A stretch of 64,000 nt of DNA, from contig JAFVAT010000030.1 of assembly GCA_017480385.1 (NCBI GenBank), forward strand, positions 1 to 64,000, written 5' to 3'. Under the pieces are notes generated by a model. The model was not told the DNA's origin, did no database searches, and saw only the letters and a list, made by a program, of their open reading frames with translations. This document shows, in pieces, positions 52,909-58,101 of this stretch (position 1 is the stretch's first letter; each line of letters begins with the position of its first letter). The stretch is from Alphaproteobacteria bacterium. GTDB lineage: Bacteria; Pseudomonadota; Alphaproteobacteria; CAAGCB01; CAG-977. Made by a program: the position numbers and the translations under genes.

Positions 52909-53985
52909 ATGCGCTTGAACCAAACGTATATCAACAAGCGGATTGACGTTCCGTATTTGCTTAAAATCGGCGAAGGCAAGCTGGCAAAAATCGGCAAATA
53001 TCTAAGTGATAAAGAGTTTGAAAACGTCGCGCTGTTTTTGGGCGAAGGGGTTGAAGCCCTGATCGGCGATGCATTTTTCAAAGGATTGGACGCCTTTGCC
53101 ATTAACGTCGTTTTGAAAAAAACGGCGACGGATATAGACTTAGAAAGCATTGCCCGCACGGCGTTCGCTCTGCCGCCCGCTGTCGACGCGATTATCGGAA
53201 TCGGCGGAGGTAAAGCGTTGGATTTTGCCAAGTATGCGGCTTATTTGCTGAAGCTGCCGTATATCGCCGTGCCGACGGTCATGTCAAATGACGGTTTTTG
53301 CAGTCCGTCTTCGTCCCTGACGGTAGCGGGCAAGCGCAAATCCGTCAAGTCGGGCGTTCCGTTCGGCGTCGTGATCGACTTGGACATTATCAGGGATAAT
53401 CCCGATGTCTTTCTGTATTCGGGCATCGGCGACATGGTTTCCAAAATCACCGCGCTGCACGATTGGAAGAACGCTTTCCGCAAAGACGGGGAACGGTTCA
53501 ACGATTTCGCGGCTTTAATGGCGTATAATTCGCTGGATATTTTGTTTTTAAAGCACTCTTTTAATATCCGGGCGCCGGAGTTTCAGCGCAGTCTGGCCAA
53601 TTCCCTGCTGATCAGCGGAGTCGCAATGGAAATAGCGGGGTCCTCGCGGCCGGCCAGCGGTTCGGAACACTTGATTTCCCATGCGCTGGATACGGTTTCT
53701 GTCCGACCGAAAGCCCACGGAATCCAAGTCGGAGCGGCGACATATCTGTGCGCCCTTTTACAGCGCAACGAAAATATTGCCGATGTTGCGTCCGTGTTGA
53801 CGAATACGGGCTTTTTGGACTTTGTCGGACAATCTCCGTTTGACCGCGCCGAATTTGAACGGGCTTTAAAGCTGGCGCCGGCGATCAAACCGGATTATTA
53901 TACGATTTTGTCCGAATCGGATTCATTTGATCGGGCAGTTCATTATCTGGACACGGACGAAACGTTAAAGCGGATTGTTCAATAA
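52909..53985 (+). CDS. sn-Glycerol-1-phosphate dehydrogenase-like protein
   Basis: About 358 residues from the ATG at 52909; the frame is open farther upstream only from a TTG. The iron-containing alcohol-dehydrogenase superfamily is seen from IIGIGGGKALDFAK (NAD-binding), PTVMSNDGFCSPSSSL, and metal ligands GSEHLISHALD with later His in PKAHGIQVG. Archaeal G1PDH and Bacillus AraM share GSEH and SHALD. If active it would make glycerol-1-phosphate from dihydroxyacetone phosphate. Rare in alphaproteobacteria. Confidence 0.82.
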   Translation: MRLNQTYINKRIDVPYLLKIGEGKLAKIGKYLSDKEFENVALFLGEGVEALIGDAFFKGLDAFAINVVLKKTATDIDLESIARTAFALPPAVDAIIGIGGGKALDFAKYAAYLLKLPYIAVPTVMSNDGFCSPSSSLTVAGKRKSVKSGVPFGVVIDLDIIRDNPDVFLYSGIGDMVSKITALHDWKNAFRKDGERFNDFAALMAYNSLDILFLKHSFNIRAPEFQRSLANSLLISGVAMEIAGSSRPASGSEHLISHALDTVSVRPKAHGIQVGAATYLCALLQRNENIADVASVLTNTGFLDFVGQSPFDRAEFERALKLAPAIKPDYYTILSESDSFDRAVHYLDTDETLKRIVQ

Positions 53986-53998
53986 ACGGGAAAAGCGA

Positions 53999-54412
53999 AT
54001 GATTTCAACGCGCGGCAGGTATGCGATCAGAGTTTTGCTGGACATTGCGGAAAACGGTCAGACCAGCTGCGTCCGTATGAAAGACGTAGCGGCGCGGCAG
54101 GAAATTTCCCTGAAATACCTGGAACGGCTGGCGACAGCTTTGACGCAAAGCGGCCTGATTGTCGGCGTGCACGGCAAAGGCGGCGGATACCGTCTGACCC
54201 GTTCGCCCGAAGAATATGCCGTTTTGGAAATCCTGTCCGTCATGGAAGGTGATCTGGCGCCCGTCGCCTGTCTGCAATGCAAGGCTCCGCCCTGCCCACG
54301 GGCCGAAAACTGCAAGACTTTGCCGATGTGGAAAGAATTGAACAGACGTTTATCCGCGTTTTTTGCGGACATTACGCTGGCCGATTTGCTGAACGGCAGA
54401 TTTAATCTGTAA
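53999..54412 (+). CDS. Rrf2-family transcriptional regulator
   Basis: 137 residues from the ATG at 53999. Winged-helix start MISTRGRYAIRVLLDIAENG, recognition region ISLKYLERLATALTQSGLI, GKGGGYRLTRS, all family-typical. A Cys cluster CLQCKAPPCPRAENC (about residues 93-108) could hold an Fe-S cluster, as in IscR/NsrR; related Firmicute proteins (CymR-like) sense cysteine supply. It sits directly upstream of the sulfur operon and may bind 54464-54484. Confidence 0.88.
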   Translation: MISTRGRYAIRVLLDIAENGQTSCVRMKDVAARQEISLKYLERLATALTQSGLIVGVHGKGGGYRLTRSPEEYAVLEILSVMEGDLAPVACLQCKAPPCPRAENCKTLPMWKELNRRLSAFFADITLADLLNGRFNL

Positions 54413-54429
54413 AAAGTCAAAAAAGAGAG

Positions 54430-54484
54430 TTGACAAAGGCCGCCTTTTTATTAATCATAAACATATCAACAAAGTAGGTTGATA
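54430..54484 (+). promoter_or_regulatory. Promoter region and candidate Rrf2 operator of the sulfur operon
   Basis: TTGACA (54430-54435) is a perfect -35; a -10 about 17 bases on (AATCAT, 54453-54458) is weak, as often seen for regulated promoters. Just downstream TATCAAC (54464-54470) and GTTGATA (54478-54484) form a 7-bp inverted repeat with 7 bases between, placed so that a bound regulator would block the promoter. Confidence 0.55.
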
Positions 54485-54507
54485 GGTTATTTGAAAGGTT
54501 TCTTACA

Positions 54508-54591
54508 GTGCAGGGCTTTGTTCATAAAACGGTTTTATTGATTGCTGCCTGCCGGTGTTGTTGTCTGTCCGCGGCAGACGGCAAAGCGTAA
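54508..54591 (+). CDS. Cysteine-rich attenuator leader peptide
   Basis: A 27-codon ORF starting with GTG at 54508, with AAAGG 9 bases upstream (54494-54498), ending TAA at 54589. Residues 15-19 are Cys-Arg-Cys-Cys-Cys (TGC CGG TGT TGT TGT at 54550-54564). It begins about 80 bases after the -35 box and ends 28 bases before a terminator hairpin. Stalling at the Cys codons would cover 54563-54567, the 5' arm of a hairpin that otherwise occupies the antiterminator strand. The leader is thus a sensor of charged tRNA-Cys for the downstream sulfur genes. Four Cys in five codons in such a short, well-started frame is unlikely by chance. This is inferred from layout, not demonstrated. Confidence 0.8.
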   Translation: MQGFVHKTVLLIAACRCCCLSAADGKA

Positions 54592-54650
54592 CTTTATTTG
54601 TTTTTTAAGAGTTTTTTCCGTCTGCTTTCGATTGAAAGCAGACTTTTTTT
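54563..54650 (+). promoter_or_regulatory. Transcription attenuator with competing hairpins
   Basis: Three mutually exclusive pairings: hairpin 1:2, GTCTG (54563-54567) with CAGAC (54575-54579); antiterminator 2:3, GCAGACGG (54574-54581) with CCGTCTGC (54618-54625); and terminator 3:4, GTCTGCTTTC (54620-54629) with GAAAGCAGAC (54634-54643), loop GATT, followed by seven T. The Cys codons of the leader lie at the 5' edge of 1:2. Low charged tRNA-Cys would stall the ribosome there, free strand 2 and prevent termination. Confidence 0.82.
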
Positions 54651-54671
54651 ATATTGAAGAGGATTAAAAAC

Positions 54672-55586
54672 ATGTTGACGGCACAGGAAAGCATAACGGC
54701 AAAACTTTGCGCTTTTGCCCGCGCGGTTCATTCCAACAACGCTTCGGCCAAGATTTCCGATGATTTTCTGGCGTTCGACCTGATGGGACGGGAACAGTAT
54801 GAAGAAATAGGCCGGCTGGTCGAATTTGATTTTCGGCGGGACGTTTCTCCGCCCGACGGATTTTTTCATTCGGAACGCATTCAAAATATTCTGACGCGCT
54901 ACATTTTGCCGATTCCCTTGTCCCGCATGGCATTTGCGGAACAACGGCTGAAAGCCTTCGCGCGGGAAAACGGCCGGTGCCAGTATCTGATTTGCGGGGC
55001 GGGCATGGATACCTTTGCTTTTCGCAACGACAATCCCGACATTCGTATCTTTGAATTGGACCGTCCCGACACGCAGCAATATAAAATCCGGCGGATTAAA
55101 GAAGTGGAATATATTATTCCTTCCGATTTGTCTTTTGTCGCCTGCGATTTTCTGGCGGACGACCTGCCGGACGTTTTACAAAACAGCGGTTACGATCCGG
55201 CTCTTCCGACTTTTATTTCCGTTTTGGGCGTGTCGTATTATCTGCCCTTGCCGGCCATGGAAAAAATGCTGGCCGGACTGGGCGCCGTTTTAAAAAGCGG
55301 CCAAATCGTCTTCGATTTTCCGGAAAAAATAAAGACCGCGCCCCGGATACGGCAGCTGGCCGAAATTACCGAACGACTGGGCGAACCGATGCAGGGCGGT
55401 TTCGATCCGCCGCAAATCACGCAGGCTTTGCAGGCCGGCGGCTGGAACGTTGTTTCCCATGTCGAACCGCAAGCCGTTCAGCGGCGTTACTTTCAAAACA
55501 GAAGCGACGGTTTGACGGCTTTCGAAGGAATCCATTTTATTTTAGCGCAAAAGGAAAGAAAAAATGAAAAAGATCAAAAGCTTTGA
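54672..55586 (+). CDS. Class I SAM-dependent methyltransferase (LCMT/PPM1-like)
   Basis: About 304 residues from the ATG at 54672 (RBS AGAGGA); a TTG at 54654 in frame is less likely. The leucine-carboxymethyltransferase type shows ICGAGMDTFAFRN (SAM-binding Gly-x-Gly with Asp), FELDRPDTQQYK and FISVLGVSYYLPLPAMEKML. COG3315 members methylate polyketide or unknown acids. First gene of the attenuated operon. In Bacillus subtilis the mccA-mccB operon also begins with a methyltransferase gene, yrrT, of a different type. Overlaps luxS by 23 bases. Confidence 0.85.
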   Translation: MLTAQESITAKLCAFARAVHSNNASAKISDDFLAFDLMGREQYEEIGRLVEFDFRRDVSPPDGFFHSERIQNILTRYILPIPLSRMAFAEQRLKAFARENGRCQYLICGAGMDTFAFRNDNPDIRIFELDRPDTQQYKIRRIKEVEYIIPSDLSFVACDFLADDLPDVLQNSGYDPALPTFISVLGVSYYLPLPAMEKMLAGLGAVLKSGQIVFDFPEKIKTAPRIRQLAEITERLGEPMQGGFDPPQITQALQAGGWNVVSHVEPQAVQRRYFQNRSDGLTAFEGIHFILAQKERKNEKDQKL

Positions 55587-56025
55587 AATCAATCATGACG
55601 TATTGGAAAAAGGGCTGTACGTTTCGCGGATCGACGGGGACGTCGTCACGTACGACGTGCGCATGAAAAAGCCGAACGGCGGCGATTACTTAGGCAACGC
55701 AGAATTGCATACGCTGGAACATCTGCTGGCGACTTTTGCCCGCAACAGCCCTCTTTCGGACAGCGTCGTTTATGTCGGGCCAATGGGCTGCCGAACAGGC
55801 TTTTACGTGCTGCTTCGCAATACGGTCGGCCCAAACGAGGCAATTTCTTTACTGCGGCGGGGCTTCGAGTTCGTGCGCTCTTTTACAGGTGAAATTCCGG
55901 GGGCTCAAAAGCGCGAATGCGGCAATTATCTGGAACATGATTTGGATGGCGCAAAGAAAATCGCCGCGGATATGATCGATGTTTTAACGGACTGGAACGA
56001 AACGAAATTAACGTATAAGGAATAA
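55564..56025 (+). CDS. luxS: S-ribosylhomocysteine lyase LuxS
   Basis: 153 residues. Cleaves S-ribosylhomocysteine to homocysteine and DPD, the AI-2 precursor. Metal site HTLEHLLATF (His-x3-His) and the catalytic-Cys region RECGNYLEHDL are intact. Alphaproteobacteria usually lack LuxS and use SahH, so this gene suggests transfer. Here it supplies homocysteine for the next two enzymes. No mtnN/pfs gene, which would make its substrate, is in the window. Confidence 0.95.
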   Translation: MKKIKSFEINHDVLEKGLYVSRIDGDVVTYDVRMKKPNGGDYLGNAELHTLEHLLATFARNSPLSDSVVYVGPMGCRTGFYVLLRNTVGPNEAISLLRRGFEFVRSFTGEIPGAQKRECGNYLEHDLDGAKKIAADMIDVLTDWNETKLTYKE

Positions 56026-56030
56026 AAATA

Positions 56031-57188
56031 ATGGCAAAATACTCTCATATCGAATCGGCATTGATTCACGGCGGAATCTACGGCGACCCGCTGACCGGCG
56101 CGGTAAACGTCCCAATTTATCAGACATCGACTTACGAACAGCAGGCGTTGGGGCAAAACAAAGGCTGGGAATATTCCCGCACCGGCAATCCGACCCGCGC
56201 GGCGCTGGAAGCTTTAATCGCCGAGCTGGAACACGGCGCGGCGGGATTTGCGTTTGCTTCCGGCATGGCGGCCTTGACGGCAGTGCTCAGTTTGTTTTCT
56301 CAGGGTGATAAAATTCTGATTTCCCAAAATGTGTACGGCGGCACCTTCCGCGTTCTGGACAAGGTTTTTAAGAACTTCGGCCTTTCCTATTCGATAGAGG
56401 ATACCGCCAATGCCGAAACGCTGGCCGATAAAATCACGCCGGAGGTCAAAGCGATTTTGATCGAAACGCCGGCCAATCCGCTGTTGACCGTCACGGATAT
56501 CAAAGCCGTTGCCGATTTGACCAAAGCGCGCGGAATCAAGCTGATCGCAGACAACACGTTTATGACGCCTTATCTGCAAAATCCGATCGATTTCGGCGCG
56601 GATATCGTCGTGCACAGCGCAACGAAATATTTAGGCGGACACAGCGATTTAGTCGCCGGACTGGCTGTCGTCAAAGAAAAAGAATTAGGCGAAAAAATCG
56701 CTTTTATTCAAAACGCGACGGGCGGCGTTCTGGGTCCCTTTGATTCCTTTTTGCTGATCCGAGGCATTAAAACGTTGGGCGTGCGCATGGACAGGCATGC
56801 ACAGAATGCCGAACGGGCCGCGCTTTACCTGAAATCCCACCCTGCGGTAAAGCGTGTGTACTATCCCGGACTGGAAGACGCGCAGGGATATGCGGTCAAT
56901 AAACGACAAGCGAAGAACGGCGGCGCAATGATTTCTTTCGAGTTAACGGAAAAATACGATGTCGCCCGCTTCTTTTCCTCTTTACGTCTGATTGCTTTGG
57001 CGGAAAGTCTGGGGGGCGTGGAAAGTCTCGCCTGTCACCCGGCAACGATGACGCACGCTTCTTTTCCGGAAAAGATCCGGCAGGAAATCGGGATTACGGA
57101 TGGTTTGATCCGGCTGTCGGTCGGAATTGAAAATATCGAAGACCTGTTGGCCGATTTGGAACAGGCGATTGAACGAAGCGGAGAGTAA
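56031..57188 (+). CDS. mccB: Cystathionine gamma-lyase/synthase-type PLP enzyme
   Basis: 385 residues. Cys/Met metabolism PLP enzyme: YSRTGNPTR near the N-terminus, GMAALTAVL, the PLP-Asp in LIADNTFMTPYL and the PLP-Lys in SATKYLGGHSD, then GGVESLACHPATMTHAS. Family members make cystathionine or split it to cysteine; the pairing with mccA and luxS favours the lyase (MccB) direction, but motif reading alone cannot decide, so metB is the alternative. Five bases after luxS. Confidence 0.9.
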   Translation: MAKYSHIESALIHGGIYGDPLTGAVNVPIYQTSTYEQQALGQNKGWEYSRTGNPTRAALEALIAELEHGAAGFAFASGMAALTAVLSLFSQGDKILISQNVYGGTFRVLDKVFKNFGLSYSIEDTANAETLADKITPEVKAILIETPANPLLTVTDIKAVADLTKARGIKLIADNTFMTPYLQNPIDFGADIVVHSATKYLGGHSDLVAGLAVVKEKELGEKIAFIQNATGGVLGPFDSFLLIRGIKTLGVRMDRHAQNAERAALYLKSHPAVKRVYYPGLEDAQGYAVNKRQAKNGGAMISFELTEKYDVARFFSSLRLIALAESLGGVESLACHPATMTHASFPEKIRQEIGITDGLIRLSVGIENIEDLLADLEQAIERSGE

Positions 57189-57189
57189 A

Positions 57190-58101
57190 ATGACGTATTA
57201 CAATTCAATGCAGGATCTGATCGGGCACACGCCCTTGGTGAAACTGACGCACTGCGGCTTTCCGCAGACCGTTTCCGTTTTTGCCAAGCTGGAATATTTC
57301 AATCCGGCCGGCAGCGTGAAAGACCGGATCGGCAAATATATGATTGAAGATGCAGAAAAGCGCGGCGCTTTAAAAGCGGGCGGCACGATTATTGAGGGCA
57401 CGGCGGGCAATACGGGATTGGGAATCGCTTTTGCCGCGCTGAACAAAGGATACCGCGTCATTTTTGTCGTGCCGGACAAGTTTTCGGTCGAAAAACAAAC
57501 GTTAATGCGAGCTTTGGGAGCAGAAATCATCAACACGCCCAGAGAACAAGGTATGCTGGGCGCTTCGGCCAAAGCGGAAGAGCTGCGGCGGTTAATTCCC
57601 GGCGCCGTTTCTTTGGAGCAATTTAAAAATCCCGCTAACCCGTTGGCGCATTATGAAACGACGGGACCGGAGATTTACCGCGATCTGGATGGGCAAATCG
57701 ATTATTTCATCGCCGGTGCGGGCAGCGGGGGGACGTTCAGCGGAATCATGAAATACCTCAAAGAACAAAACCCCGCAATCAAAGGCATTTTGGCCGATCC
57801 GGTCGGTTCGACCATGGGCGGCGGAGAACATGCCGATTACGATATAGAGGGAATCGGCAACGACTTTATCGCGGAAACAATGGACATGTCTCTGGTCGAC
57901 CGGATTATTAAAATCACGGACGCGGAGGCTTTCACCGGCGCTCGGACGTTGGCGGCCAAAGAAGGAATCTTCGCCGGTTCGTCTTCGGGTGCGGCTTATG
58001 CGGTCGTTCAGAAACTTACCGCTTCAGGCGCTGCCGGAAATATCGTGTTTATCCTGCCCGATAGGGGGGATCGCTATTTCAGCAAACACTTGTACGATTA
58101 A
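57190..58101 (+). CDS. mccA: Cysteine synthase/cystathionine beta-synthase-type PLP enzyme
   Basis: About 303 residues from the ATG at 57190, one base after the mccB stop. PLP beta-replacement enzyme: N-terminal IGHTPLVKL, PLP-Lys in NPAGSVKDRIGKYM, EGTAGNTGLGIAFA, AGAGSGGTFSGIMKYLKE and GSSSGAAY. It could be CysK, but the operon order after luxS and mccB suggests the O-acetylserine-dependent cystathionine beta-synthase MccA; cysE at 14185 would supply the O-acetylserine. Its start inside an earlier frame (57127) is not used. Confidence 0.88.
   Translation: MTYYNSMQDLIGHTPLVKLTHCGFPQTVSVFAKLEYFNPAGSVKDRIGKYMIEDAEKRGALKAGGTIIEGTAGNTGLGIAFAALNKGYRVIFVVPDKFSVEKQTLMRALGAEIINTPREQGMLGASAKAEELRRLIPGAVSLEQFKNPANPLAHYETTGPEIYRDLDGQIDYFIAGAGSGGTFSGIMKYLKEQNPAIKGILADPVGSTMGGGEHADYDIEGIGNDFIAETMDMSLVDRIIKITDAEAFTGARTLAAKEGIFAGSSSGAAYAVVQKLTASGAAGNIVFILPDRGDRYFSKHLYD

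Follow-up and report, generated by a model that had tools for sequence, protein, structure and literature searches.

Transcription of sulfur operons can respond to cysteine in several described ways. In Clostridium perfringens and C. acetobutylicum, the ubiG-mccB-mccA(-luxS) operon carries a cysteine-specific T-box, together with an S-box antisense element (PMC2940859). Short leader frames with runs of Cys codons have been known in Actinobacteria since 2005, ahead of the cys operons of Mycobacterium and Propionibacterium and of cbs in Bifidobacterium (PMC1262725), and a later account reports the mycobacterial frames to be cysteine-responsive (Canestrari 2020). In the alphaproteobacterial order Rhodobacterales, the leader uORFC-8-2 precedes cysS with tandem Cys codons, and ribosome-mediated attenuation has been proposed for it (PMC8632094).

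The leader described here precedes a methyltransferase-luxS-mccB-mccA operon in a 64-kb stretch of alphaproteobacterial DNA, all of which was analysed (the window). It resembles uORFC-8-2 in its host class, its tandem Cys codons, the hairpin over those codons and its intrinsic terminator; however, uORFC-8-2 controls cysS in another order, whereas the window leader precedes an mcc operon (PMC8632094). The actinobacterial frames are similarly short, with runs of Cys codons ahead of sulfur genes, but they have no conserved terminator and Rho was suggested for them (PMC1262725), whereas the window has a clear terminator and antiterminator. Mycobacterial poly-Cys frames are also leaderless, which the window frame is not; those in G006 and G007, two other genomes of the same order, are perhaps leaderless but have terminators. 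The Clostridium T-box serves the same pathway and a similar operon, with premature termination set by the charging of tRNA-Cys. It differs in that the T-box RNA senses uncharged tRNA directly, while the proposed sensor in the window is the translating ribosome (PMC2940859). No Rfam family, the T-box with its core and specifier loop included, reached the gathering score in the window leader, and the only matches at E ≤ 1 were two unrelated, low-scoring ones. Replacement of a T-box by a leader peptide is a known pattern in Firmicutes, as for hisS (PMC2965389). The trp, his and leu attenuators share with the window the leader codons and the 1:2, 2:3 and 3:4 helices, but here the amino acid is cysteine and the genes are those of reverse transsulfuration. 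We found no description of a Cys leader before mcc/luxS operons in the literature searched, which mostly lay outside the subscription journals.

An earlier, sequence-only reading of the window had proposed a ribosome-mediated Cys attenuator on a Met-to-Cys recycling operon, and knew of no Cys leader of this kind in alphaproteobacteria. The mechanism is strongly supported by the comparisons below. The supposed novelty for alphaproteobacteria fell with uORFC-8-2, published in 2021 (PMC8632094), and the setting appears to be an imported operon, most relatives of which belong to rumen Clostridia, with a type of leader that is far commoner there. We consider, with a probability of roughly 0.87, that the leader is a ribosome-mediated, cysteine-specific transcription attenuator on an imported operon, with Rrf2 as a probable further layer of control.

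Leader frame, RNA helices and operon

The features of the locus are listed in Table 1. The leader frame with its Cys-Arg-Cys-Cys-Cys run was present as the sequence-only reading had it, though the Shine–Dalgarno sequence is weak. It starts about 45 nt downstream of the predicted transcription start site and, short as it is, concentrates codons for the amino acid under control, with Cys at codons 15 and 17–19.

Table 1. Coordinates of the leader, the promoter region and the adjoining genes in the window.
Feature	Position	Strand	Basis
Rrf2-family regulator gene adjoining the operon	53975–54412	+	PF02082, TIGR00738
Candidate sigma-70-type promoter TTGACA-N17-AATCAT	54430–54458	+	Consensus scan, 10/12 matches, 0.6 expected by chance
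Perfect inverted repeat TATCAAC-N7-GTTGATA at the predicted transcription start; candidate Rrf2 operator	54464–54484	+	Inference
Shine–Dalgarno AAAGG, weak, 9 nt 5' of GTG	54494–54498	+	Sequence
Leader frame VQGFVHKTVLLIAACRCCCLSAADGKA, 27 codons, GTG start, TAA stop	54508–54591	+	Cys-rich leaders at the equivalent place in G006, G007 and 58/63 clostridial-type loci
Control codons Cys-Arg-Cys-Cys-Cys (TGC CGG TGT TGT TGT)	54550–54564	+	Sequence; Cys clusters recur in relatives, TGT/TGC mixed
Strand 1, overlapping the last Cys codons	54558–54569	+	Pairs with 54573–54584
Strand 2; antiterminator strand GCAGACGG = 54574–54581	54573–54584	+	Pairs with strand 1 or strand 3
Strand 3; 54618–54625 CCGTCTGC against strand 2, 54620–54629 against strand 4	54618–54629	+	Pairing analysis
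Strand 4 (54634–54643) and T7 tract (54644–54650), intrinsic terminator	54634–54650	+	Perfect 10-bp stem
SAM-dependent methyltransferase, first gene of the operon	54684–55586	+	PF04072, TIGR00027
luxS, S-ribosylhomocysteine lyase	55564–56025	+	PF02664, NF002604 above cut-off
mccB-type cystathionine gamma-lyase/homocysteine lyase	56031–57188	+	PF01053; best model NF005810, below its cut-off
mccA-type cystathionine beta-synthase-like PLP enzyme (MccA/CysK-type)	57187–58101	+	PF00291; TIGR01137 best, below its cut-off

All three helices of the sequence-only reading were recovered at the places it gave. Hairpin 1:2, which overlaps the Cys codons, comprises 12 bp (−15.1 kcal/mol; z = −4.0 against shuffles). 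The 2:3 pairing consists of the eight Watson–Crick pairs already noted and one additional G-U pair reaching 54626, and together with its inner helix has an energy of −17.2 kcal/mol (z = −3.4). The perfect 10-bp terminator stem and its seven T residues lie between the leader and the first gene (−15.8 kcal/mol; z = −5.6). Strand 3 overlaps the 5' arm of the terminator, so that the 2:3 and 3:4 helices are computed to be mutually exclusive.

Folding under ribosome constraints, which had been suggested as a check, gave the expected alternation, in which a ribosome positioned over the control codons released the antiterminator. Once the polymerase had completed strand 3, a ribosome stalled at any Cys codon, all four being modelled, left 2:3 as the minimum-energy fold (−16.8 to −17.8 kcal/mol); with the ribosome at the stop codon, the terminator was the sole remaining fold. 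For a stalled ribosome at equilibrium, 2:3 and 3:4 were nearly tied (−17.8 versus −17.6 to −19.2 kcal/mol, varying with the assumed footprint). The argument for attenuation thus depends on the order in which the strands are synthesized.

With an ample supply of Cys-tRNA(Cys), the ribosome would run through the 27-codon frame to the stop and mask strand 2, upon which 3:4 would form and RNA polymerase would halt at the T tract. When Cys-tRNA(Cys) is scarce, the ribosome would be held at Cys codons 17–19 and mask strand 1; strand 2 could then capture strand 3 ahead of the synthesis of strand 4, and transcription would continue into the operon. Read-through would thereby express genes that recycle the sulfur of methionine and SAM to cysteine.

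Domain models bore out the gene row methyltransferase-luxS-mccB-mccA, the methyltransferase being of the LCM type. By analogy with the ubiG-mccBA pathway, the operon is assigned to the established route from SAM/methionine sulfur to cysteine (PMC2940859), which places its structural genes in the pathway of the regulated amino acid. The operon under this putative cysteine switch also carries luxS, and with it AI-2 production.

To estimate the chance expectation, we used a detector that called a full set where a short frame had three or more Cys within six codons, was followed by an intrinsic terminator and could pair over 8 bp or more with the terminator arm. In 3000 dinucleotide shuffles of 54401–54683, this full set (antiterminator ≥8 bp) arose twice, and any Cys-cluster frame with a terminator five times. 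On both strands of the whole window, the leader was the only full set found.

Related leaders in Clostridia and other gut bacteria

The nearest methyltransferases, at 44–56% identity, are found in rumen and gut Clostridia and in some other gut bacteria, mostly with luxS, mccB and mccA downstream. The search of related genomes called for by the sequence-only reading showed that Cys-rich frames recur upstream of the same operon. A Cys-cluster frame was present on the coding strand within 350 nt upstream in 58 of the 63 clostridial-type loci with enough upstream DNA. The background was 48 in 1666 windows taken elsewhere in these loci, and the opposite strand gave 1 in 63. A typical clostridial leader peptide reads ...CCCMCCTDTGG.... 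The detector placed the full set at 43 leader positions and at three positions elsewhere across 868 kb of the same loci. The clostridial leaders pair over 8–11 bp with the 5' arm of the terminator (≈43 loci), and several further clostridial loci miss only the strict terminator rule. Dozens of rumen Clostridia have a predicted Cys leader of this kind ahead of the operon, and such leaders are commoner there than in alphaproteobacteria.

Conservation of the Cys codons and covariation of the stems had been named as further checks; the Cys clusters are kept, and the 2:3 and 3:4 helices stay paired through sequence changes. Strand 2 of the window, GCAGACGG, aligns with ACAGRCGG of the clostridial leaders, and strand 3 aligns as well. 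In an alignment of 42 leaders, the window included, 92% of the cells in the 2:3 helix and 95% of those in the 3:4 helix were paired, compared to 26–52% when the helices were slid. The covariation scores of both helices exceeded those of all 500 shuffles, a type of test that relatedness inflates. Two pairs in each helix changed on both sides, one of them by an exchange of A-U for G-C that sets the window apart; this modest two-sided covariation reflects the high conservation of the strands. The Cys codons in the relatives' leaders are a mixture of 202 TGT and 98 TGC, while the codons of strand 2 are almost invariant (ACA in 48/48, GGC for the second Gly in 46/48). Free choice in the former beside frozen codons in the latter points to a constraint at the tRNA level on one and at the RNA level on the other, and thus to two kinds of constraint in one short sequence.

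A profile of the leader gave one match per clostridial genome, upstream of the mcc operon, with the exception of G077. A wider Cys-leader regulon was considered and rejected, as the only extra matches were two weak ones in G077 without the full set. No T-box or S-box was found at Rfam gathering thresholds in 20 clostridial loci.

In rumen and gut Clostridia at large, an undescribed family of Cys attenuators might take the place of the Cys T-box in controlling the reverse-transsulfuration operon. It might have followed the operon, or been rebuilt with it, in at least two separate imports into gut alphaproteobacteria, where it would work alongside an Rrf2-type repressor; we regard this broader proposal as evenly balanced. 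If it is correct, charged tRNA-Cys would have been kept as the signal while the sensor was swapped from T-box to leader peptide. This would be a clean natural case of one operon switched by a T-box or by a leader peptide depending on the clostridial host, and of one operon that, following transfer, has Cys attenuators in different phyla; a widespread cysteine switch would join the few Cys attenuators so far described.

At several loci (among L036–L100), the Cys leader lies a few nucleotides past a cysK-like gene, giving the row cysK-leader-methyltransferase in many Clostridia. In Selenomonas (L104–L107, L110, L112 and L113), a Cys-rich frame (MKCDCCNIGK..., MCCCCSVK...) directly precedes the first gene of a methyltransferase-mccB-mccA operon. 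In L105 and L108, also from Selenomonas, a terminator-like hairpin is located 5' of the Cys frame and not behind it. The Selenomonas arrangement appears to differ from that of the window, perhaps with translational control.

Rrf2 and competing explanations

Rrf2 genes number two in the window's genome and one in each of the six other members of the genus, and the proteins of those members share only 34–43% identity with that encoded at 53975–54412. The other copy adjoins cysK in the window's genome and in several genus members. The inverted repeat at the predicted start site has no other exact match in the window. Repeats of the same arm-N7-arm form occur at the promoters of other copies of the operon, in L057 (ACCTAC-N7-GTAGGT), L096 and L105. 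The operon promoter of G006 and G007 has a box, CTACTA-(A/T)-rich-TAGTTGACTTT, in common with the cysK promoters of the order. A box like CTACTATTTTAGTTGACTTT at the cysK promoters and at the operon promoters of G006 and G007 is found near Rrf2 genes. The repeats with 7-nt spacing and the CTACTATTTTAGTTGACTTT-like box are candidate operators of a cysteine-linked Rrf2 regulator. Taken together, the second Rrf2 gene, the repeat at the start site and the common promoter box make control of initiation by Rrf2 likely, and a repressor of this type probably adds a second level of control to the operon.

Such a repressor could act alone at TATCAAC-N7-GTTGATA, with the terminator just ending upstream transcripts and the Cys frame incidental. 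The Rrf2 gene directly upstream, a second copy absent from other members of the genus, the perfect repeat, the promoter box common to cysK and the G006/G007 operons, the position of the host's other Rrf2 gene next to cysK, and the closest relative of the operon, L057, which has a repeat of this form and no leader, are all in keeping with this explanation. However, it leaves unexplained both why 58 of 63 loci have Cys clusters and why leader and terminator pair over 8–11 bp. Moreover, in G006 and G007 the upstream gene already has its own terminator, separate from that of the leader, and Rrf2 control and attenuation are compatible. We therefore regard Rrf2 control alone as improbable; the conservation of the leader before the same operon decides the case for the attenuator.

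Alternatively, the Cys frame could work by translational coupling, Rho or peptide arrest, modes that have been discussed for the Cys frames of mycobacteria, and not by a choice between antiterminator and terminator. There is precedent in the mycobacterial Cys leaders without terminators (PMC1262725), and the Selenomonas Cys frame sits directly before the methyltransferase with no terminator behind it. In the window and ≈43 relatives, however, the 5' arm of the terminator is complementary to the leader, and the peptide outside the Cys run is not common to the window and its relatives, which argues against a sequence-specific arrest peptide; a mechanism of this kind is quite improbable. Chance, with a short Cys-containing frame happening to fall next to an ordinary terminator, would fit the weak start and Shine–Dalgarno sequence and the lack of peptide conservation between the window and its relatives, but is very improbable given the two hits in 3000 shuffles and already contradicted by the recurrence of Cys leaders upstream of the same operon.

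Origin of the operon and leaders within the order

RpoB of the host scored best against PDB 7ye1 (presumably Caulobacter), clearly above E. coli, which fits an alphaproteobacterium. In the MccB tree, the window fell inside a clade of Bacillota and Treponema, with G006 and G007 elsewhere, and in a concatenated tree of three genes it was joined to the rumen Treponema L057 (97/89). These trees give good support to a horizontal acquisition of the operon from bacteria of the rumen or gut. A single import into the order was considered and rejected: the three operons of the order were united in 0 of 200 bootstrap trees of the three genes, and the likelihood was lower, although the AU test did not reject one clade (p = 0.215 for mccB, 0.064 for three genes). 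Two separate imports are thus likely and no more than that. The L057 operon, the window's nearest relative, lacks a leader, and the window leader is therefore not traced to the clostridial ones despite the alignment of strands 2 and 3. It may have arrived with the operon or arisen in place.

The operon is present in 3 of the 12 genomes of the order, namely the window's genome, G006 and G007, and all three have a Cys-rich leader and a terminator upstream. In a sample of 385 genomes of the class, the methyltransferase was present at E ≤ 1e-50 in just two, the window's genome and G007. The leaders of G006 and G007, MRKTDKQISAFFCAACCCRNRGHGCCRPY and MRKINKQISVFFRAACCRRNRGHGCCRP, lie upstream of the methyltransferase and are followed by a terminator unlike that of the window. 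The two peptides are alike, while the window peptide differs from both except in its Cys codons. With the ribosome at the first Cys cluster and the polymerase just beyond strand 3, the antiterminator fold was obtained for both (−14.0 to −15.5 kcal/mol). Their loci, L032 and L033, are on the minus strand, with the leader ATG ≈7 nt past a −10-like box (TTGACT-N17-CATATA in L033), and the frame may be translatable without a 5' leader, like those of mycobacteria. A second Cys pair lies near the end of the frame.

No Cys-cluster frame was found in the 500 nt before the cysS match in the 12 genomes of the order, nor did the detector find a Cys attenuator before cysS or cysE there. In G005 and G002, of the same genus as the window's genome, a Cys-rich frame of 42–43 residues with a signal-peptide-like start, MKKITVFVLACLLYASAAFACGCQQHPCDCGCGHETECDCGK, precedes cysK (L157 and L161). 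It has a strong terminator behind it, one arm of which pairs over 7–8 bp with the end of the frame. This frame is a candidate for a second, unrelated Cys attenuator, or for a small secreted Cys-rich protein.
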